From NCBI RefSeq assembly GCF_013035315.1, contig NZ_WQHP01000006.1:186001-250000 (forward strand): DNA of 64,000 nt, read 5' to 3'. The stretch comes from Ruegeria arenilitoris (GTDB taxonomy: Bacteria; Pseudomonadota; Alphaproteobacteria; Rhodobacterales; Rhodobacteraceae). The notes beneath the pieces are model-generated. The model was not told the DNA's origin and made no database searches. It saw only the letters and a program-made list of their open reading frames with translations. Positions 777-36,759 of the stretch are shown piece after piece. The first letter of the stretch is position 1. Every line of letters starts with the position of its first letter. The translations under genes and the position numbers were made by a program.

Positions 777-1105
777 TGAACACTCTGATAAACACATTTT
801 CTGCTTTGTCCGATTCCACTCGGTTCTCGATTGTCGAGCAACTGATGCAGGACGGCGAGCTGCCCGCCGGAGACCTGATTGAAGGGCGGGGAATGTCTGG
901 TGCCGCAATCTCGCGTCATCTTAAAGTGCTGCGCGAGGCCGGGCTGGTACGACAGCGCGTGCAGGGCACGCAGCGGATGTATTCTATCCAACCTGACGGA
1001 CTGCGGGCGATCGCGGAATGGACCATTTCCAAACGTGAGTTCTGGGAAAACAGCCTTGATCGCTTGGGTGACCTCATTGAAAGGGAAAATTCATGGCCGA
1101 CCTGA
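770..1105 (+). CDS. ArsR-family winged-helix transcriptional regulator
   Basis: This 111-aa protein has the compact ArsR fold. FSALSDSTRFSIVEQL resembles the dimer and first helices, and GAAISRHLKVLREAGLV is the recognition helix region (about residues 43-59), followed by a wing with RVQGTQRMYS. There are no metal-site Cys pairs, so it is unlikely to sense metals. It resembles the ArsR subgroup paired with AHSA1 proteins. ATG at 770 and ATG at 776 are both possible starts, and neither has a clear ribosome site because a perfect inverted repeat covers the leader. It overlaps the next gene by 13 bases, so the two are probably co-transcribed and autoregulated. The ligand is unknown. Confidence 0.85.
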   Translation: MAMNTLINTFSALSDSTRFSIVEQLMQDGELPAGDLIEGRGMSGAAISRHLKVLREAGLVRQRVQGTQRMYSIQPDGLRAIAEWTISKREFWENSLDRLGDLIERENSWPT

Positions 1106-1521
1106 AACTGGAACGTGAGTTCCCCACCACTCCGGAAAACCTGTTTGCCTGGATCAGCGATGGCGCAAAGCTGTTGCAGTGGTGGGGCCCCGAGGGGCTG
1201 CATGTGCCGGAACATGATCTGGATTTCTCGCGCCTTGGGCCATGGTACTCGGTCATGGTGAATGAAGAAGGCCAGCGGTACAAAGTTTCCGGCCAAGTAA
1301 CCCATGTCGACCCGCCCAATTCAGTCGGTTTCACTTGGGGGTGGCATGATGATCAGGACCAGCGCGGAGCCGAAAGCCATGTGACGTTGACGGTCGAACC
1401 TGCGGGGAATGGTGCCCGCCTGATCCTGGATCATCGCGACCTTGGCGATGATGAGATCGCTGCCAACCACAATTCCGGTTGGACCTCGTCGCTGCGGAAA
1501 CTCGAAGCGCAATTTCAATAG
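1093..1521 (+). CDS. SRPBCC / AHSA1-type domain protein
   Basis: This 142-aa single-domain protein has the START-like (Bet v1) fold of the AHSA1 family. Typical features are the opening LEREFPTTPENLFAWI, the tryptophan-rich LLQWWGPEG, and the closing GWTSSLRKLEAQF helix with the family's G-W pattern. These proteins form a hydrophobic cavity, and their ligands are mostly unknown. The gene starts inside the end of the ArsR-type gene, the usual ArsR-AHSA1 pairing. By inference it works with that regulator in a small stress or ligand response, and not as an Hsp90 co-chaperone. Confidence 0.8.
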   Translation: MADLKLEREFPTTPENLFAWISDGAKLLQWWGPEGLHVPEHDLDFSRLGPWYSVMVNEEGQRYKVSGQVTHVDPPNSVGFTWGWHDDQDQRGAESHVTLTVEPAGNGARLILDHRDLGDDEIAANHNSGWTSSLRKLEAQFQ

Positions 1522-1543
1522 GTTTTATCACGGAGGAAGAGAA

Positions 1544-1864
1544 ATGCCCCAATATTTGTTTGTCTATCACGGTGGAACCACGCCAACCGACCCCGCCGAA
1601 GTCGAAGCAACCATGGCCGCCTGGGGCGCGTGGTTCCAGAACATGGGCGAAGCTCTGGACATCCCCGGCAACCCGGTGGGGCAGTCCTATACGGTCAGCT
1701 CAAGCGGCGTTGTTGACAATGGCGGGGCCAATCCGGCTTCGGGCTTTACGGTCATCAAGGCCGACAGCATTGACGCCGCGACCGAGATGGCCAAGGGGTG
1801 CCCCATGGTCGTCAACGGCTCAGGCTCGGTCGAAGTTGCCGAGGTGCACGAGATCGAGATGTGA
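1544..1864 (+). CDS. YciI/DGPF-like domain protein
   Basis: This 106-aa protein begins MPQYLFVYHGG at an ATG preceded by GGAGGA with good spacing. It has the small ferredoxin-like fold expected of YCII-related proteins. The pattern is a first strand, a helix over DPAEVEATMAAWGAWFQNMG, a small-residue strand, the strand-helix segment GFTVIKADSIDAATEMAKGCP, and a last strand VEVAEVHEIEM. Family members often sit next to AHSA1 and sigma-factor or ArsR genes. It is the third gene of the module that begins at the ArsR-type regulator, 22 bases after the SRPBCC gene. The biochemical role is unknown. Confidence 0.7.
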   Translation: MPQYLFVYHGGTTPTDPAEVEATMAAWGAWFQNMGEALDIPGNPVGQSYTVSSSGVVDNGGANPASGFTVIKADSIDAATEMAKGCPMVVNGSGSVEVAEVHEIEM

Positions 1865-1867
1865 GCC

Positions 1868-2866
1868 TTAGCCGGGAAACCCCGGCGCAGGTCTGATCAC
1901 GCCGCATTCAATTCCGCGACGGGAATACTGAACCGCGTTCATGAATTTGCGGGTGGCCGGGTGCTCGGCCTCCAGCACTCCCAAGCTGACCAGAATGGCA
2001 GCAATCGAGCATTCGCTGGCGCGGGTAGTGCCGTCGGTGATTTTCAGTGCAACGCCCAGCTTTTTCTCGGGAATGATCGCGACGAAAACCGCCTCGGCCC
2101 CGGTCTTGATCGCGGCGCGTCCGTTCATCGCTCGCATAAGTTCAGTGCAGGCGCGGCTTTCGCCAGCGACCAGTTCCGGATGTTTGATCATGGCGGCGGT
2201 GAGTTGCTGCGCGGCGTGGCTGGCCCGGTCAGACCGGTCAGCAGCTGACGCAAACCACGCCATCGAGCGCGCAAGGCCCACCAGAGAAGTGGCAAAGTTC
2301 GGTGCCGAGCACCCGTCGATCCCGTAGCCCGGGCTGGTTTCGCCGGTGGTCTCTTCCAGGGCGGACAGGCAGGCCTGCTGTACCGGGTGGTCGATCTCAA
2401 GGTATTCCGGTCCGGCCCCCATATGCTGTGCTACAGTCAGGAACCCGCAGTGTTTGCCTGAACAATTGTTGTGAATCTGGCAGGGCGTATCATCGGCAAG
2501 GATCAGCCCATCCCGCGCCGCCATGTCCTGCGGTTCCTGTGGGCCGCAGCGCAGGTCGTGCTCGGCCAGCCCGAGGTGATCCAGCCAGGCGGTTACGCGA
2601 TCCGTGTGAATATGCGCGCCACTATGAGAGGCGCAGGCTAGAGCAAGATGTTCGCTGTTCAGGCCATACTTCGCAGCAGCGCCGGACGTAATCAACGGCA
2701 GTCCCTGGATCATTTTTGCCGAGGATCGGGGATAGATCACGGCGTTGGGATCGCCCCAGCTTTGCACGATCTGACCACTGTCATCACAGATCACTGCGTG
2801 GCCCAGATGCAGGCTTTCCAGCAATGGGCCACGCCACAGTTCTGTCATTGGTACCGGCTGCGTCAT
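1868..2866 (-). CDS. L-asparaginase II (thermolabile, Rhizobium type)
   Basis: The predicted product of 332 aa matches the asparaginase II family of alphaproteobacteria, which is unrelated to the E. coli EcAII fold. It hydrolyses asparagine to aspartate and ammonia. Recognisable segments are the N-terminal ELWRGPLLESLHLGHAVI, the SSAKMIQGLPL motif, HSGAHIHTDRV, the conserved NNCSGKHCGFL and GIDGCSAPNFA. The ATG at 2866 is preferred over one eight codons upstream because family members begin close to the ELWRG segment. Its 3' end faces the YciI-like gene with only three bases between. No signal peptide is visible, so it should be cytoplasmic. Confidence 0.85.
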   Translation of the reverse strand: MTQPVPMTELWRGPLLESLHLGHAVICDDSGQIVQSWGDPNAVIYPRSSAKMIQGLPLITSGAAAKYGLNSEHLALACASHSGAHIHTDRVTAWLDHLGLAEHDLRCGPQEPQDMAARDGLILADDTPCQIHNNCSGKHCGFLTVAQHMGAGPEYLEIDHPVQQACLSALEETTGETSPGYGIDGCSAPNFATSLVGLARSMAWFASAADRSDRASHAAQQLTAAMIKHPELVAGESRACTELMRAMNGRAAIKTGAEAVFVAIIPEKKLGVALKITDGTTRASECSIAAILVSLGVLEAEHPATRKFMNAVQYSRRGIECGVIRPAPGFPG

Positions 2867-3044
2867 CTGGCCCCTCCATAATATGCGCAAAATTCTGCCA
2901 ATCGCCCTTTCGCCTGTGGCGAAACCTGCGTTAGTGTGTGTATGTCGACAATCATCGGAATACGCAACTTACAGACGAACCGGCAGAGTTCGTACGCATC
3001 TTCGATGGGTATGAGGTATTAGGTCGAGCTAGGAGGCTGGACAG

Positions 3045-3578
3045 ATGGGATCAAAACTCGTCCGTGTGATCGCGGGCCTGTGCGTGGCAGGAATGGCCAC
3101 AACCGCAACCGCTCAGCAGGGGACCAGCACAAATCGTGTGGCGGCAAAAACGGATTGGAGCGTTTTCGTCGAAGACGATCCCACCGAGTGCTGGAGCGTG
3201 TCTGCCCCCAAGGAAACCGTAAACACCCGCGGTGGTCGCGTGGTCTCGGTGCGCCGTAGTGACATCCTGTTATTCGTGTTCTACCGCCCCAATGCCGAGG
3301 TCAAAGGTCAAGTCACCTTCACCGGCGGCTACCCGTTTGCGGCGGGATCGACCGTAAACCTTGAGATCGACGGGACCGAGTTTGAACTGATCACCGAAGG
3401 CGAATGGGCCTGGCCGGCAACCGAAGGCGAAGACCTGAAGGTGGTCGCCGCGATGAAGCGCGGCACCGAGGCTGTTCTGACGGCACGTTCGGAACGCGGT
3501 ACCCAGACCAAGGATACGTTCTCTTTGCTGGGCTTTACGGCCGCAATCGAAGACGCGGAAAAGCGCTGCACCGATTGA
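3045..3578 (+). CDS. Invasion-associated locus B (IalB)-like exported protein
   Basis: This 177-aa protein has a signal peptide (about residues 1-23, ending in TATAQ) and an AGGAGG ribosome site just upstream. The mature part shows the IalB pattern: DWSVFVEDDPTECWSVSAPKET, a central ISFRP-like segment here as LLFVFYRP, and a C-terminal GFTAAIEDAEKRC. The two Cys residues at either end probably form a disulfide in the periplasm. IalB-like proteins are widespread in non-pathogenic Rhodobacteraceae, so the name does not imply invasion. A rho-independent terminator follows directly. Confidence 0.8.
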   Translation: MGSKLVRVIAGLCVAGMATTATAQQGTSTNRVAAKTDWSVFVEDDPTECWSVSAPKETVNTRGGRVVSVRRSDILLFVFYRPNAEVKGQVTFTGGYPFAAGSTVNLEIDGTEFELITEGEWAWPATEGEDLKVVAAMKRGTEAVLTARSERGTQTKDTFSLLGFTAAIEDAEKRCTD

Positions 3579-8326: not shown

Positions 8327-9427
8327 CTATAGCGCGTTTAGACTGGTCTCGAATGCCTGCCACAATTCTTCGACCGGTTCGCATCCGACCGAGAGCCTGA
8401 CGAAACCCGGATCAACGTCGTCGCCCCAACGGGCGCGACGTTCTGCCGAGCTGTGGACACCACCAAACGAGGTGGCGGGTCGCAGTAACGGACAGGTATT
8501 GATAAAGCTCTCGGCTTTTTCTTCCGAGGCCAACGTAATTGACAGCAGGAACCCGAACCGTGTCGTTTGTGCATTGGCCAGCGCGTGTGACGGGTCGCCC
8601 GGCAGGCCGGGATAGCGGATCGCCGTGATCGCCGGGTGATTGGCCAGCCGTTCCGCCAGAACCTGCGCCGAGCTGCACATCCGGTCGAACCGTACATCCA
8701 GCGTTTCCAAACCACGATGCAGCAGCCATGCCTCGTGCGGGCCGGGGATCGCGCCGGACACGCGCCGCCATTCTTCCACCCGTTCCATGATTTTCTCGTC
8801 GCGGCTGGCAACATGCCCCATCAGCAGGTCCGAATGTCCGCCCATCGCCTTGGTGTCCGAGGCAACCACGACATCGATACCCATATCCAGCGGGCGTTGG
8901 CCCAACGGGGTCATGGTCGTGTTGTCGGCGATGGTGATCCCTCCGGCCGCACGTACAGCAGAGGCGATGGCGGGCAGGTCCATCATGTCCAACCCGGGGT
9001 TCGAAGGGCTTTCCAGAAAGACCACGTCGAACCCTTCGAAGCCGCCTTGATCAAACGCGGTCGTCGGGCGTTCAGTGACCAAGACGCCGAGGTTCGACAG
9101 AAACCGGTCGGCCAACAGTCGTGTGACGTAGTATCCGTCCGATGGAATCAGGACGCGGGACCCGGCTTTGACCGTCGCGAACAATGCTGCCGAGATCGCG
9201 CCCATGCCCGACGGAAAGGTCAGGCAAGGCGCGTTTTCCAGATGGGCCAGCACGTGTTCCAGATGCACCCAAGTCGGGTTGTCGACGCGACCGTAGGTTG
9301 GGTGACCGTCCGGCGCGCCCGGCAGGTGGTACATGCTGCTCTGCGTCAGCGGTAGGGCCACAGGCTCACCTTTGGACAACGCATTGCCGCGCAGGTGCAG
9401 CATCTCACCGGTCTTTGGGTTCTTCAT
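8327..9427 (-). CDS. Cys/Met-metabolism PLP-dependent enzyme (cystathionine lyase-like)
   Basis: This 366-aa fold-type I PLP enzyme belongs to the trans-sulfuration family. The PLP lysine is Lys193 in SDTKAMGGHSDLL, the family motif is ESPSNPGLDMMDLP, and the cofactor stacking residues lie around SGMGAISAAL. The sequence fits cystathionine beta-lyase or a related lyase acting on sulfur amino acids. Exact substrate cannot be read from sequence. It starts three bases after the LOG-family gene ends and is probably in the same transcript. Confidence 0.85.
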   Translation of the reverse strand: MKNPKTGEMLHLRGNALSKGEPVALPLTQSSMYHLPGAPDGHPTYGRVDNPTWVHLEHVLAHLENAPCLTFPSGMGAISAALFATVKAGSRVLIPSDGYYVTRLLADRFLSNLGVLVTERPTTAFDQGGFEGFDVVFLESPSNPGLDMMDLPAIASAVRAAGGITIADNTTMTPLGQRPLDMGIDVVVASDTKAMGGHSDLLMGHVASRDEKIMERVEEWRRVSGAIPGPHEAWLLHRGLETLDVRFDRMCSSAQVLAERLANHPAITAIRYPGLPGDPSHALANAQTTRFGFLLSITLASEEKAESFINTCPLLRPATSFGGVHSSAERRARWGDDVDPGFVRLSVGCEPVEELWQAFETSLNAL

Positions 9428-31107: not shown

Positions 31108-31774
31108 TCAGGCTCTGACACCGGTTACAGCCGTTGCGCCAACAACCTGTCCGCTTTCCAGTGTCAGCATCACCTTGTTGTCGACAATTTGCGCTTCAAC
31201 GACGTTGTTGTAGGCCGAGGCCAGTTCCTGGGACAGCAGCTTGTCGCCGTCAAAGCTCTCCAACATGGCTGAATAGGTCCCGGCTGGGAACGGCTGCCCA
31301 TCGCTGTCTTTTCCCGACCAGACCATTTTCTGGTCGGTTTCGGACATAGGGACCCGGTCAATGATTGCGCCTTCGCTGTCGCGGATAACCATAACCGCCT
31401 TGTCCGCTGCCGCGTCGGGTTTGGCAAACAGGGTCACGGGCGCACCTGCAAGTTTGAACGCTGATGGCGCGCGCACGTCCATTCCGACCCACTTGCCGAG
31501 TTTGTCCAGATTTCCACCCCCCCAGAGCCTGACCAAGCGTCGACAACAGATCATTGGTCTGAACCTGCTGCTCCACCATCGAGAATTGCGCCAATTGCGA
31601 TGCGTATTCCGATGCGTCCAAAGGTTTGAGCGGATCCTGATTTCGCGCCTGAATCGTCAGCATTTTTAGGAACGTCACAAAATCGGACGCCAGACCGGTG
31701 GTTTTTGCTGCGTTGAAACTTTTATTTGGGGCGGGTGTTGCGGTGTTGGATTGGGTCGGGGAAATCATTGTCAC
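31108..31774 (-). pseudogene. flgD: Flagellar hook-capping protein FlgD, frameshifted in a G7 tract
   Basis: FlgD caps the growing hook and is needed for hook assembly. The 5' part from ATG 31774 reads as FlgD to QALGG (codon 86): SDFVTFLKMLTIQARNQDP, then ASEYASQLAQFSMVEQQ. The frame then runs into unrelated sequence and stops at 31358. The rest of FlgD (GGNLDKLGKWVGMDVRAP to TAVTGVRA) continues in another frame to 31108. Seven G residues (C7 at 31517-31523 on the plus strand) mark the junction. Six would restore a 221-aa protein. This may be a true mutation, a slippage tract, or a homopolymer sequencing error. It overlaps fliK by four bases. Confidence 0.85.
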
Positions 31775-32961
31775 AACCTCATGTCGATGCGGCCCACAGG
31801 GCCGGTTCTAGTAACAGGCACCGCGTTGCCTGAGGGGTCAGCCATTTGTGCGGCGTCGCCGAGCGGCCTGTTTTCTTGATTCGCGCGCTCGTGGCTCTTG
31901 TCCGAAGAGGTTCCGAGGTCAAAGGATAAATCACCCAGTCCGAGATTCCTGAACTCCTCCTCCAGAACCAAAAGGTGTCGGCGCATCATGTCCAGCGTTT
32001 CGGGGCGTTCGGCCGAAATGGTCAGGTGCACCCCGTCGTCGCTACCATTCAGAACGATGGATACGCGCCCCAGTTCTTCAGGGTTCAAGGCAATTTCAAC
32101 AGCGCCAGAGTTCGGCTGAGCAGTGATGACCGCCGCCATCTGTCCGGCGACCGCGCGGGCCACTCCAGCGCGGGCTGCAGGTGCCATGTTATGAATCGGA
32201 GCCGGGGTCTCTCGACCGGTCGAAACGGGCGCTTCGGTCCTGAGCAGGGCAACCTCCTCGACGATCAAATCAGCGTTTCCATCAACCTGAATATTCGGTT
32301 TCCCGGACGCGAACAGCTGCATCTGCGCGATGCTGGGTGCGCGATCTGGTTTTGGCGTCTGTTGCTGTTCAACCTGAGTTGGCTGGGATTGATCTGCGGC
32401 TTGCCGATGTTGAGGCAAGCGTCGGGTCAGATCAGCGTCTGCTTTCGTTTGACGCTTGGTCGCCTGGATCACTGGAGCTGCAGTTTCTGGTTTAGCTGCA
32501 TCCGCAGAGGACCGAAGTGGTTGATGTGTTGGTGGATCATTCGCCAAAACGCGTGAGGATTGGCGAATGTCCTGTATCGCGCCTTGCTCAGATGCCTGCA
32601 GTGCCTGATCCCGCCCAACAGGGGCAGTAACCAACAATGGAGTGGGCTCGGGGTCAATCTTCGGCTCTGGTTTTTCTAGATCAATGTGTGGTGGATCTTG
32701 GTCCGCCTTTTCAGGATCGACGCGAGCTTCTTCCGTTTCTGGCTTTGGTATACCGTCTGTTTCAACCTCAACCTCAACCTCAACCTCCGGCTCGGCCGGG
32801 ACCATGCCCAGGCTAACATCCTGATCGCTGTTCTCATCGCTATGCTGATCGAGCATGGCAGCAAACGCCGCGCCGGTATCGTCCCCCGGCTCGGGTGTAT
32901 TGCCTTGAGATTTGGCGGCGGCGGTTGGCGAGGAAGTCACCACTGAAAGAGGGTTGGGCAT
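31771..32961 (-). CDS. fliK: Flagellar hook-length control protein FliK
   Basis: The 396-aa protein has the usual FliK form: a long, polar, low-complexity N-terminal ruler (about 1-265, rich in Pro, Glu, Gln) and a compact C-terminal domain (about 275-360). That domain holds GAVEIALNPEELGRVSIVLN and HLTISAERPETLDMMRRHLLVLEEEFRNLG. It controls the switch from hook to filament secretion. A VEVEVEVE run is encoded by four tandem CAACCT hexamers (32763-32786 on the plus strand). It lies directly upstream of flgD, with a four-base overlap. Confidence 0.88.
   Translation of the reverse strand: MPNPLSVVTSSPTAAAKSQGNTPEPGDDTGAAFAAMLDQHSDENSDQDVSLGMVPAEPEVEVEVEVETDGIPKPETEEARVDPEKADQDPPHIDLEKPEPKIDPEPTPLLVTAPVGRDQALQASEQGAIQDIRQSSRVLANDPPTHQPLRSSADAAKPETAAPVIQATKRQTKADADLTRRLPQHRQAADQSQPTQVEQQQTPKPDRAPSIAQMQLFASGKPNIQVDGNADLIVEEVALLRTEAPVSTGRETPAPIHNMAPAARAGVARAVAGQMAAVITAQPNSGAVEIALNPEELGRVSIVLNGSDDGVHLTISAERPETLDMMRRHLLVLEEEFRNLGLGDLSFDLGTSSDKSHERANQENRPLGDAAQMADPSGNAVPVTRTGPVGRIDMRL
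32763..32786. repeat. Four tandem CAACCT hexamers inside fliK
   Basis: The hexamer array encodes alternating Val-Glu in the FliK ruler region. Being a multiple of three, copy-number change would alter length without breaking the frame. Confidence 0.8.
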
Positions 32962-33072
32962 TTTGCTCCGGCTCCGATTGTGTGACCGAATACTTGCCCG
33001 CAGGAAGTTACGTTTATTTTAACTGCTTTCTTCTTTGATCGTGAAAGTTCGATGCAATTTTCGGAGAAAACG

Positions 33073-33354
33073 ATGAAGGTATCAGCGCCATTACCAGCTC
33101 CCCAATCCTCGGCCTGCGCGCAGAAATTGCATGCCGCGGCCGTTGAGCTGGAAGCCGCATTTCTGGGCGAGATGTGGAAGTCCGCGGGGTTGGGACAAGC
33201 CCTTCAGTCCTTTGGAGGCGGCGCGGGCGAGGATCAGTTCGCGTCGTTTCTTGTGCAGCATCGGGCCCGCGCGCTGGCCCAGTCCGGCGGGGTCGGCCTG
33301 TCCGAGATCCTGTTCCAGTCCATGATGGAGAAAACAAATGTCAACGACACCTGA
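33073..33354 (+). CDS. FlgJ-like rod-binding protein
   Basis: This 93-aa protein matches the N-terminal rod-binding domain of FlgJ: AAVELEAAFLGEMWKSAGLGQALQ, then GEDQFASFLVQHRARALAQSGGVGLSEILFQ. The muramidase domain of enterobacterial FlgJ is absent, as is normal in alphaproteobacteria. It helps rod assembly through the periplasm. ATG 33073 is chosen because GGAG precedes it at good distance. It is divergent from fliK and overlaps the next gene by 17 bases. Confidence 0.8.
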   Translation: MKVSAPLPAPQSSACAQKLHAAAVELEAAFLGEMWKSAGLGQALQSFGGGAGEDQFASFLVQHRARALAQSGGVGLSEILFQSMMEKTNVNDT

Positions 33355-33697
33355 AACCGATCTTGTGAAGTCCCTTGAAGAGGTTTTGGACCTTGAGCGC
33401 AATGCACTGGTCGAGGGCGATCTGGACCGCCTGCATCACACGGCGCCCGAAAAGGAAAAGCTGATCGGTGCGCTCAACGACCTTGAGGTCTTTGACAGTG
33501 ACGAGTTGATGCGCTTGCAGAAAAAGGTCGAGCGGAACCAGGCGCTGCTCAACAGTGCGGCTGAGGGGATTCGCGCTGTAGCCGATCGCATGGCCGAACT
33601 TCGGCGGGTGCGACAGGAATTCAGTACCTATGGCGCCGACGGCCAACGCAGCGGATTCGCCGTCAGACATCATGCCAAGCTGGAAAAGCGGGCCTAG
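33338..33697 (+). CDS. FlgN-like flagellar export chaperone
   Basis: This 119-aa protein is a continuous helical hairpin, as in FlgN, which escorts the hook-filament junction proteins FlgK and FlgL. The pattern LEEVLDLERNALVEGDLDRLHHTAPEKEKLIGAL near the N-terminus, with a long C-terminal helix over QALLNSAAEGIRAVADRM, fits the family. Placement between the FlgJ-like and flagellin genes supports this. Sequence identity to well-known FlgN proteins is expected to be low. Confidence 0.7.
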   Translation: MSTTPETDLVKSLEEVLDLERNALVEGDLDRLHHTAPEKEKLIGALNDLEVFDSDELMRLQKKVERNQALLNSAAEGIRAVADRMAELRRVRQEFSTYGADGQRSGFAVRHHAKLEKRA

Positions 33698-33806: not shown

Positions 33807-33906
33807 GCCCGACGGCGGATCGCACCGATCAGAAAGACGTGAAAGCCCGCACAGGTGGCGGGGTGAGCATGGGCGCAAAAGGCCCGAACGGAAAAGGATG
33901 ACAGAT

Positions 33907-35118
33907 ATGTCCAGCATTCTGACAAACAATGGCGCAATGGTTGCGCTGCAAACACTCAAGTCGGTCAACAAAGATCTTGGCGCGACGCGGAACGCGATCT
34001 CGACGGGTAAGGACGTTGCAACTGCCAAAGACAACTCGGCTGTTTGGGCGATTTCCAAGGTCATGGAGTCGGATGTCAAAGGCTTCAACGCAATCAAGGA
34101 CAGCCTGTCGCTGGGTGAATCCACTGTTGCTGTTGCGCGTAACGCATCTGAGACTGTCACCGACCTGCTGACTCAGATGAAAAGCAAGATTGTCGCGGCA
34201 CAAGAAGACAACGTTGACCGCGACAAGATCAACGCTGACGTGACCGCGCTGAAGGGGCAGATCAACTCGGTGGTGAAGGCTGCTCAGTTCAATGGTTTGA
34301 ACCTTGTGGACGGCTCGGCTGGCTCGGCCTCTATCCTGGCCTCGCTGGACCGGGATAACACCGGCAACGTGACTGCTTCTTCGATCAGTGTCGCAGGGCA
34401 AAACCTGTCGACTGGCGGCTACGTGACCAAGGCAGTGTTTGATGGCTCGACCGGATCGTCCACTGGCAACGACCGCGTGGGTGCAACCATCGCCAACGCA
34501 GCGACCTCGGCCACTGCTTTGGTGACCGATGAATCCAGCGGCACCTTTGCGGCTGGTGACAAAGTGGTCGTCGCCATCGATGATCAGGTCGTGTCCTATA
34601 CCGTGACTGCCGCAGACGCCGCGGCGACCACCACGGGCGACATCGTCGCCGTTGGTCTGAAAGCCAAGATCGAAGAGATGGGTATCAACGGTCTGACTGT
34701 CGGCTATGACTCGGGCACACAAGGCACCCTGGCCGTCACCAACAACACCGGTCGCGACATCTCGTTCTCGGCACAGTTCGTGAACGCAGGTTCGGGCGGT
34801 CTCGGCGCAATGGCGGGTCTGGACGTGTCCACCGGTGCCGGGGCGACAGCCGCGCTGGCCACGATCGAAACGCTGATCGACACATCTATCGACGCGTCGG
34901 CTGCCTTTGGTTCGGCTCAGGGCCGGATCGAGACCCAGAAAGAGTTCATTTCGAACCTGGCGGATTCGTTCAAATCGGGGATCGGCTCGTTGGTTGATGC
35001 GGACATGGAAGAGACCTCAGCGCGCCTGCAGGCCCTTCAGGTTCAGCAGCAGCTGGCGACTCAGTCGCTGTCGATCGCCAACCAGGCACCGCAGTCGATT
35101 TTGTCTCTGTTCCGCTAA
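33907..35118 (+). CDS. fliC: Flagellin
   Basis: This 403-aa filament subunit has conserved ends and a variable middle. The N-terminal D0/D1 region is MSSILTNNGAMVALQTLKSVNKDLG to about residue 140. The central, Ala/Gly/Thr-rich segment is about 145-310. The C-terminal D1/D0 helix ends QQLATQSLSIANQAPQSILSLFR, with the Leu-Phe-Arg terminus usual for flagellin. ATG 33907 is chosen over 33898 because AAGGA is then spaced properly and family proteins start MSSIL. It heads a cluster with flaF and flbT. Confidence 0.95.
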   Translation: MSSILTNNGAMVALQTLKSVNKDLGATRNAISTGKDVATAKDNSAVWAISKVMESDVKGFNAIKDSLSLGESTVAVARNASETVTDLLTQMKSKIVAAQEDNVDRDKINADVTALKGQINSVVKAAQFNGLNLVDGSAGSASILASLDRDNTGNVTASSISVAGQNLSTGGYVTKAVFDGSTGSSTGNDRVGATIANAATSATALVTDESSGTFAAGDKVVVAIDDQVVSYTVTAADAAATTTGDIVAVGLKAKIEEMGINGLTVGYDSGTQGTLAVTNNTGRDISFSAQFVNAGSGGLGAMAGLDVSTGAGATAALATIETLIDTSIDASAAFGSAQGRIETQKEFISNLADSFKSGIGSLVDADMEETSARLQALQVQQQLATQSLSIANQAPQSILSLFR

Positions 35119-35195: not shown

Positions 35196-35570
35196 GTGAC
35201 ACCGCAAGCTTTTGCCCAGCGTGCCTATGCACAGACCGCCGCACCGACGCGCACCCCGCGCGATACCGAATACGAAGCGATATAAAAGATTACCCACAGG
35301 CTCAAAGCCGCCGCTGCCCGGCAAGCGGCCGATTTCGGCGGGTTCGTTCAAGCCCTGCACGAAAACCGCCGGTTATGGACCGTTCTGGCCAGTGGAGTAA
35401 CGGATTCCGAAAACGGTCTGCCCAACGACTTGCGCGCTCGCATTTTCTATCTGGCCGAGTTTACCGAACAGCACAGCAGCCAGGTTCTTGGCAATAAGGC
35501 CTCGGTTGAGCCACTGCTTGAGATCAACATGGTGGTACTGCGTGGTCTGCGGCAGATGAGGGCCACGTAA
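35196..35570 (+). pseudogene. flaF: Flagellin biosynthesis regulator FlaF, interrupted by an in-frame TAA
   Basis: FlaF is needed for flagellin synthesis or secretion in alphaproteobacteria. GTG 35196, preceded by GGAAGGA, starts MTPQAFAQRAYAQTAAPTRT, and 29 codons are read before TAA at 35283-35285. The same frame then continues for 94 codons as clear FlaF: KITHRLKAAAARQAADFG, NRRLWTVLASGVTD, LRARIFYLAEFTEQHS and VLRGLRQMRAT, ending at the flbT start. A single nonsense change explains it, and no nearby restart codon exists. It is a second broken gene in the flagellar block. Sequencing error or read-through cannot be ruled out. Confidence 0.85.
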
Positions 35571-35971
35571 TGGCAGGATTGGTTCTGAAACTGGCCCCGA
35601 AAGAGCGTGTTCTGATCAACGGTGTGGTCTTGGAAAACGGGGACCGACGCAGCCGGTTCTCGATCATGACGCCCGAGGCAAATGTTTTGCGTCTGCGGGA
35701 CGCGATTCATCCCGACGAGGTGAATACCCCGGTTCGACGTGTTTGCTATGCCACGCAGCTCGTCCTGTCGGGCGACACAGAGCCCGATCGGGCCCGCCAA
35801 CAATTGTTGCGCCGGGTCGAGGAGTTGAGCCAGGTTTTCACAGACGCAGACAGCCGCCGGGTGCTGGCCGAAGCGACCGAAGCCTTGCTGGATGAGCAGT
35901 TCTACAAATGCCTCAAGGCTCTGCGTGCATTGCTGCCACGCGAAGAACGCCTGATGGCTTATCAACAATGA
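35570..35971 (+). CDS. flbT: Flagellin mRNA regulator FlbT
   Basis: This 133-aa protein matches FlbT, a post-transcriptional repressor of flagellin in alphaproteobacteria. Recognisable features are LVLKLAPKERVLINGVVLENGDRRSRFSI, the DAIHPDEVNTPVRRVCYATQLVLSGD segment, and a helical C-terminus. The start ATG overlaps the flaF stop (TAATG). Because flaF is interrupted, translation coupling to flbT may be lost. Its stop overlaps the DUF1217 gene by four bases. Confidence 0.93.
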   Translation: MAGLVLKLAPKERVLINGVVLENGDRRSRFSIMTPEANVLRLRDAIHPDEVNTPVRRVCYATQLVLSGDTEPDRARQQLLRRVEELSQVFTDADSRRVLAEATEALLDEQFYKCLKALRALLPREERLMAYQQ

Positions 35972-36759
35972 CCTTCCAGCCGGTTATACCATCGGGCGGG
36001 CTGGTTGGCTGGCGGTTCCTGCAACGCACCTATGACGCGCAGCTGGAAAGCTTTTCGGCGTCTGCGGTCAACAAGCGGGACAGTGAGTATTTTCTGGCGA
36101 ACATTAAAAAGGTTCAGACAGCGGAAGACCTGGTATCAGACCGTCGGTTGTTGCAGGTCGCGCTGGGGGCCTTTGGGTTAGAAGGCGATCTGGATAACCG
36201 CTTTTTCATCCAGAAAATCCTGTCTGATGGAACGAAGGCGCAGGACGCTCTGTCGAACCGCTTGTCTGACAAAAGATACCGGCAGTTCTCGGATGCGTTT
36301 GGATTCGGGCCGGGTGAAGTGCGCAAAACCGGGCTGATCACCAATATGGAAGAGATTGCGCGTGACAACATGGTGTCTCGGTTCGAGGTTGCGGTGGGCG
36401 AGACAGATGAAACGATGCGTATCTCGCTTTACGCCCAACACGCGCCGAGCGATCTTGCCGCGAAGGGGGGCAGCAAGGATACTAAATGGTTCGACCTGAT
36501 GAGCTTGCCACCGCTTCGTCGCATGATGGAGACTGCGTTGGGTTTGCCCGCGAGTTTCGGTCAGCTGAACATCGACAGGCAGCTTGAGGTGTTCAAGGAT
36601 CGGTTGTCCGGTTTGACGGGATCCGATGATTTGGCCCAGTTCAAAGACAAAGAGGCCAGAGAGCAGTTGACGGATCAATTCCTGGCCCGAAGCCAGATCG
36701 CTCAGCTTGAAAACGTGGTTTCACCCGCGCAAACCGCGCTGATCCTTCTGGGCGGCTAA
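35968..36759 (+). CDS. DUF1217 flagellar-locus protein
   Basis: This 263-aa protein starts MTFQPVIPSGGLVGWRFLQRTYDAQ and has the DUF1217 pattern of repeated motifs such as DSEYFLANIKKVQTAEDLVSDRRLLQVALGAFGLE and KILSDGTKAQDALSNRL. The family occurs almost only beside flagellar genes of Rhodobacterales and Rhizobiales, and its role in motility is undefined. ATGA overlap with flbT places it in the same operon. It converges with the adenylate cyclase gene. Confidence 0.85.
   Translation: MTFQPVIPSGGLVGWRFLQRTYDAQLESFSASAVNKRDSEYFLANIKKVQTAEDLVSDRRLLQVALGAFGLEGDLDNRFFIQKILSDGTKAQDALSNRLSDKRYRQFSDAFGFGPGEVRKTGLITNMEEIARDNMVSRFEVAVGETDETMRISLYAQHAPSDLAAKGGSKDTKWFDLMSLPPLRRMMETALGLPASFGQLNIDRQLEVFKDRLSGLTGSDDLAQFKDKEAREQLTDQFLARSQIAQLENVVSPAQTALILLGG

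Follow-up and report, generated by a model that had tools for sequence, protein, structure and literature searches.

A frame-broken flgD in Ruegeria arenilitoris as the very probable remnant of a dismantled fla1 flagellum

The flgD gene and its flagellin island

The stretch of DNA analysed here, hereafter the window, comprises 64 kb (G000:C20:186001-250000) of a 4.39 Mb genome (G000) assembled in 23 contigs and listed as 99.99% complete. On its minus strand lies a gene for the hook-cap protein FlgD (31108-31774), which is read in two frames. PF03963, the FlgD N-terminal domain, is recognised at 61.5 bits in the frame that starts at 31774, and PF13860, the FlgD Ig-like domain, at 44 bits in the frame that ends at 31108. 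Both domains score above cut-off but are split over two frames, and the gene has no single continuous open frame. Stops are absent from both frames, each within its own FlgD portion. The frames meet at a run of seven G (C7 on the plus strand) at 31517-31523, which is the only G/C run of at least seven bases in the 64 kb, where runs of six or more number seven. According to PMC8595650, FlgD forms the hook cap and is needed for hook assembly; a profile search of the whole genome returned the window flgD as its one FlgD match.

The named records matching the N-terminal piece were mostly from Ruegeria, with Ruegeria sp. R14_0 at the top, and included some other Roseobacter-group genera. R14_0 (L032; G022), the nearest relative, carries six G at the tract, and its flgD is one frame of 221 aa; the DNA alignment places one extra base in the window at exactly this tract, and the encoded amino acids are 90% identical in the N-terminal and 83% in the C-terminal piece. 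The sequence-only reading, which held that two FlgD frames join at the G7 run and that removing one G restores a protein of 221 aa, is thus borne out on both points. It had also pointed to tract length in relatives as informative. Across 98 loci, a set that includes the window's own genome and several strains twice, the 66 bases surrounding the tract have a longest G run of seven in three loci (the window, and R13_0 twice), six in two (R14_0 twice), five in three and two to four in 90; with at most five G in 93 of the 98, the tract is not conserved among relatives. In R13_0 (L026/L050) the seven G leave the frame intact, so the number seven alone is no lesion; the lesion is the frame break, which, judging by the genomes read, is private to the window's lineage. 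Seven bases is also short for a switch tract. The flgD frame of R. atlantica CECT 4292 (L037; L096, G018) is also broken by one base, but at another site, in the second half of the gene.

Adjoining flgD on the minus strand is an open frame for the hook-length control protein FliK (31771-32961; PF02120), full-length relative to R14_0. The plus strand carries open frames for a flgJ-like rod-binding protein (33052-33354; PF10135), a flgN-like chaperone (33338-33697; PF05130, partial match) and the flagellin gene fliC (33898-35118; PF00669 and PF00700), followed by a flaF pseudogene (35196-35570), an open flbT (35570-35971; PF07378) and, adjoining flbT, an open DUF1217 gene (35968-36759; PF06748) that is syntenic in R14_0. 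The in-frame stop of flaF (35283-35285) is a serine codon in R14_0, from which it differs by three substitutions within four bases, and the PF07309 match lies 3' of this stop. The order flbT-flaF-fliC-flgN-flgJ-fliK-flgD is also that of the fla1 flagellum of Phaeobacter inhibens DSM 17395 as described in PMC11974857, where an unbroken flgD comes after the core within a single run of locus tags; unlike this arrangement, both R14_0 and the window genome have island and core on different contigs. We consider it very probable, from the sequence comparisons assembled below, that the window flgD is a pseudogene in what survives, as a flagellin island (flgD-fliK-flgJ-flgN-fliC-flaF-flbT), of a fla1 flagellum since dismantled.

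Flagellar deletions in the same genome

R14_0 retains the complete flagellar core, which extends over about 16 kb with flgI and flhA at its ends. Contig C4 of the window genome aligns with both flanks of this core, with about 14.9 kb between them gone, and the scar (G000:C4:46964-46971) joins flhA at about residue 343 to flgI at residue 247, with no clear long repeat at the junction. By comparison with R14_0, the deletion took the export-gate, rod, hook and ring genes. Relative to R14_0, the flhA remnant has lost one base and, further along, two more, and the FlhA family is represented in the genome only by two fragments in different frames, which cover positions 1-73 and 73-281 of a model 657 positions long. 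A second scar, on contig C19 (G000:C19:266723-266731), runs from the start of fliP to a gene of 710 aa beside motA that has no Pfam match and is here labelled CP710; the 5.6 kb that R14_0 has at this place, including fliN, the gene at the fliH position, fliF, fliL and motA, are missing, and the junction carries an 8-bp repeat that is present at both edges in R14_0. Most of fliP is retained in frame at this junction, and CP710 is left in several pieces; the CP710 remnant (G000:C19:266723-267947; L175/L176) lies in several frames, with an identity below that of its flanks. The names FlgI, FlgK, FlgE, FliF, FlhA, FlhB, FliR, FlgG, FliN, MotA, FliL, FlgB, FlgH and FlgA are Pfam-based, as are SLT transglycosylase, Lrp/AsnC and DUF1523; fliI was named from an ATPase match, fliP and motB by eye, and fliH and flgL by position.

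Flg_bb_rod and Flg_bbr_C are the marks of rod, hook and FlgK proteins, and neither of them, nor the FliF C-domain, had a single match in the genome at E <= 0.001. FliF was found in 52 of the 54 Ruegeria genomes compared, the two without it being G000 and R. atlantica (G018). The models for FlgD, FlhA, Flg_bb_rod, Flg_bbr_C and FliF_C likewise disclosed no second flagellar system in the window genome. Two features expected of a decayed system are present, namely an intact orthologue in the nearest relative (the 221-aa flgD of R14_0, together with its complete core) and the loss of other essential flagellar genes from the same genome. With export-gate, MS-ring, rod and hook genes deleted or unfound, a hook would be impossible at any tract length, and the cell is predicted to be aflagellate and incapable of swimming. 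The earlier expectation of a non-flagellate cell is accordingly very probably right in its outcome, but the reason it gave, the break in flgD, is too small: the cause would be the loss of the core.

These deletions also bear on whether the broken frame could still be put to use. FlgD is exported through an FlhA/FlhB/FliR-type gate within the FliF ring, and because gate and ring genes are deleted, even whole FlgD would have no export route, which makes switching or slippage irrelevant to motility. Two suggestions of the sequence-only reading, a reversible on/off tract and expression rescued by slippage, fall with this. That the G tract is a phase-variable contingency switch, its length toggling the hook and thus motility, has in its favour that the G run sits exactly at the break and that short homopolymer switching is known in a flagellar gene, H. 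pylori fliP (as cited in PMC2831843), where a change in homopolymer length likewise breaks a flagellar frame; however, no intact system is left here to switch on, the rest of it being non-functional, and the tract is short and has not been kept among relatives, so that we regard a switch as extremely improbable. Hardly any weight can be given either to the view that a ribosome or polymerase slipping at the G run yields enough whole FlgD: the open frame kept in both halves of the gene would fit it, but is accounted for by a recent lesion, the flagellar core is missing, and the tract is out of frame in no other genome of the genus examined. The third suggestion, a true loss, is instead supported by the two multi-kb deletions and by the broken flhA and flaF in the same genome.

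That flgD is in fact intact, with one base at the tract misread in sequencing or assembly, has to be considered separately, as the site is a homopolymer in a draft assembly. We judge such an error unlikely. The other lesions differ in kind (two multi-kb deletions, and a flaF nonsense codon with three clustered substitutions), R. atlantica CECT 4292 has a different flgD break and is also core-less, and the flagellum would be gone even if the tract had been misread. As a quality control, 70 greedy-picked R14_0 ORFs of at least 100 aa from two syntenic stretches were compared with the window genome, in which 33 are whole in one frame. Among the 37 others, 25 lie within the two flagellar spans, five touch or pass the limit of the sequence compared, and three are unmatched in the window genome. 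None of the last four has a Pfam match; two appear to be shadows of the long ORFs opposite them (an ABC-type pair; fliP), and the other two could be non-flagellar frame breaks. Frame breaks thus concentrate in flagellar genes, which is unexpected from an error process, although the two remaining ORFs leave some doubt.

Core loss across Ruegeria

The genus sample comprised 54 Ruegeria species genomes, one per species, all of which have an FlgD match. FlhA is full length in 46, including G077 with its internal TGA, partial in four (G000, G029, G036, G063) and not found in four (G001, G018, G033, G074). The distance from flhA to DUF1523 is about 14.2-14.4 kb in 43 of the 45 non-deleted genomes; the other two (G014, G030) have flhA and DUF1523 on separate contigs and were scored as non-deleted, with six rod matches each. 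G075 has a whole FlhA, yet its flhA and DUF1523 genes are separated by just some 3.7 kb, which makes it the ninth core-deleted genome. The scan for Flg_bb_rod covered 41 of the 54 genomes and gave five matches in G010 and one in G036.

The break points differ in all nine core-deleted genomes. With each edge expressed as an approximate residue number in the R14_0 protein, flhA is joined to flgI in three of them (343/247 in G000, 198/72 in G029, 416/11 in G063) and to flgE in G036 (L108; 239/304), which has a second deletion in flgK-flgL (locus 8549-8568). The transglycosylase gene is joined to flgI in G018 (142/326), G001 (167/177) and G033 (85/91) and to flgL in G074 (178/268), and in G075 the end of flhB is joined to flgL at residue 198. 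Junctions were resolved base by base for the window genome, R14_0 being more distant from most of the other deleted genomes. A quick tree was built from about 1.25 kb, covering flgD and the neighbour downstream of it, with SH-aLRT as the only support measure. On it the nine deletions need eight changes, seven of them forced by strongly supported branches, and the deletion label shows no clustering on this tree beyond shuffles (172-183 of 500 equally low); the core deletions thus probably fall on seven to eight lineages. G018 and G063 are sisters, and because the deletion of G063 lies inside that of G018, the two may go back to one shared event. The sister of the window genome, R14_0, retains the core.

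Frame breaks in flgD occur in two of the nine core-deleted genomes (G000, G018) vs none of the 45 others; the chance of both falling into the core-deleted set is C(9,2)/C(54,2) = 36/1431 = 0.025, a value calculated by hand and post hoc. In the other seven core-deleted genomes flgD is open, and a flgD lesion is therefore no necessary sequel of core loss. A gene counted as intact when one frame covered at least 85% of the query, a test that small terminal lesions would escape. By the same measure fliK falls below 85% in three core-intact genomes (G030, G024, G016), each with one long frame, which we read as divergence. As for the rest of the island, flaF is broken in the window genome; in G018 (L110) and G063 (L115) flgJ, flgN, fliC, flaF and flbT were unmatched within the 7.9 kb examined, with fliK partial and flgD still recognisable, and in the remaining six core-deleted genomes the whole flagellin island is open. 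G077 (L177, G077:C8) has one in-frame TGA in flhA (locus 1002-3086) in an otherwise complete core span, and may represent a tenth lineage, in which flagellum loss has only just begun.

Taken together, and with the caveat of a small sample viewed post hoc, the states across the genus read as stages of one process: a nonsense codon in flhA, a core deletion that leaves the island intact, one in which the island is broken too, and near-complete removal. With such a graded series, one can test in what order, and how repeatably, marine bacteria lose the flagellum. A lone broken gene that resembles a switch or a sequencing slip very probably marks, in the window genome, the loss of a whole organelle. 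The deletion ends recur in few edge genes, namely transglycosylase, flhA or flhB on one side vs flgE, flgL or flgI on the other. We raise only tentatively, and with some doubt, the further idea that the same core has been dropped repeatedly by separate deletions under selection for loss, not by neutral decay, and that the leftover island may go on serving a second function until it decays too.

Sporadic loss of fla1 is already published for Rhodobacterales: PMC12363192 gives fla1 as absent in 7 of 50 clade-1 genomes, best explained by independent losses, and in 8 of 35 genomes of clade 3B and 3 of 50 of clade 8. The window genome would be another such loss. That account deals with presence and absence, and what our analysis adds is the deletion scars and decay stages, the joins, the second deletion and the small lesions having been read and the island being left in most of the nine genomes. 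The literature listings searched, outside which most subscription papers lie, show no title on Ruegeria flagellar pseudogenes, and passages on R. atlantica in two papers make no mention of its motility.

Order of events and substitutions in the island

The deletion of the core most likely came first in the window's lineage, with unselected lesions in the leftover genes later, an order that we infer; a point lesion could also precede the deletion, given the TGA in flhA of G077 with its whole core span. Once basal body and export apparatus were absent, selection on flgD and flaF would have ceased, and the gain of one base in a short G run would have been tolerated.

Over the island, substitutions on the branch of the window genome (96 amino-acid-changing, 192 silent) are apportioned as on the R14_0 branch (70 and 131; Fisher p = 0.77), and the same holds for two control genes (24/43 vs 22/53, p = 0.47). 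There is hence no excess of amino-acid change on the window genome's branch over the island, and relaxed selection is visible only as the lesions in flgD, flaF and flhA, which suggests that the flagellum was lost recently relative to the divergence from R14_0, or that some use for the island persists.

Within the island, fliC (33898-35118) has a pattern of its own, with 32 amino-acid-changing and 84 silent changes on the branch of the window genome and two and 28 on that of R14_0. It resembles the outcome of a swap to a different flagellin allele in one lineage.
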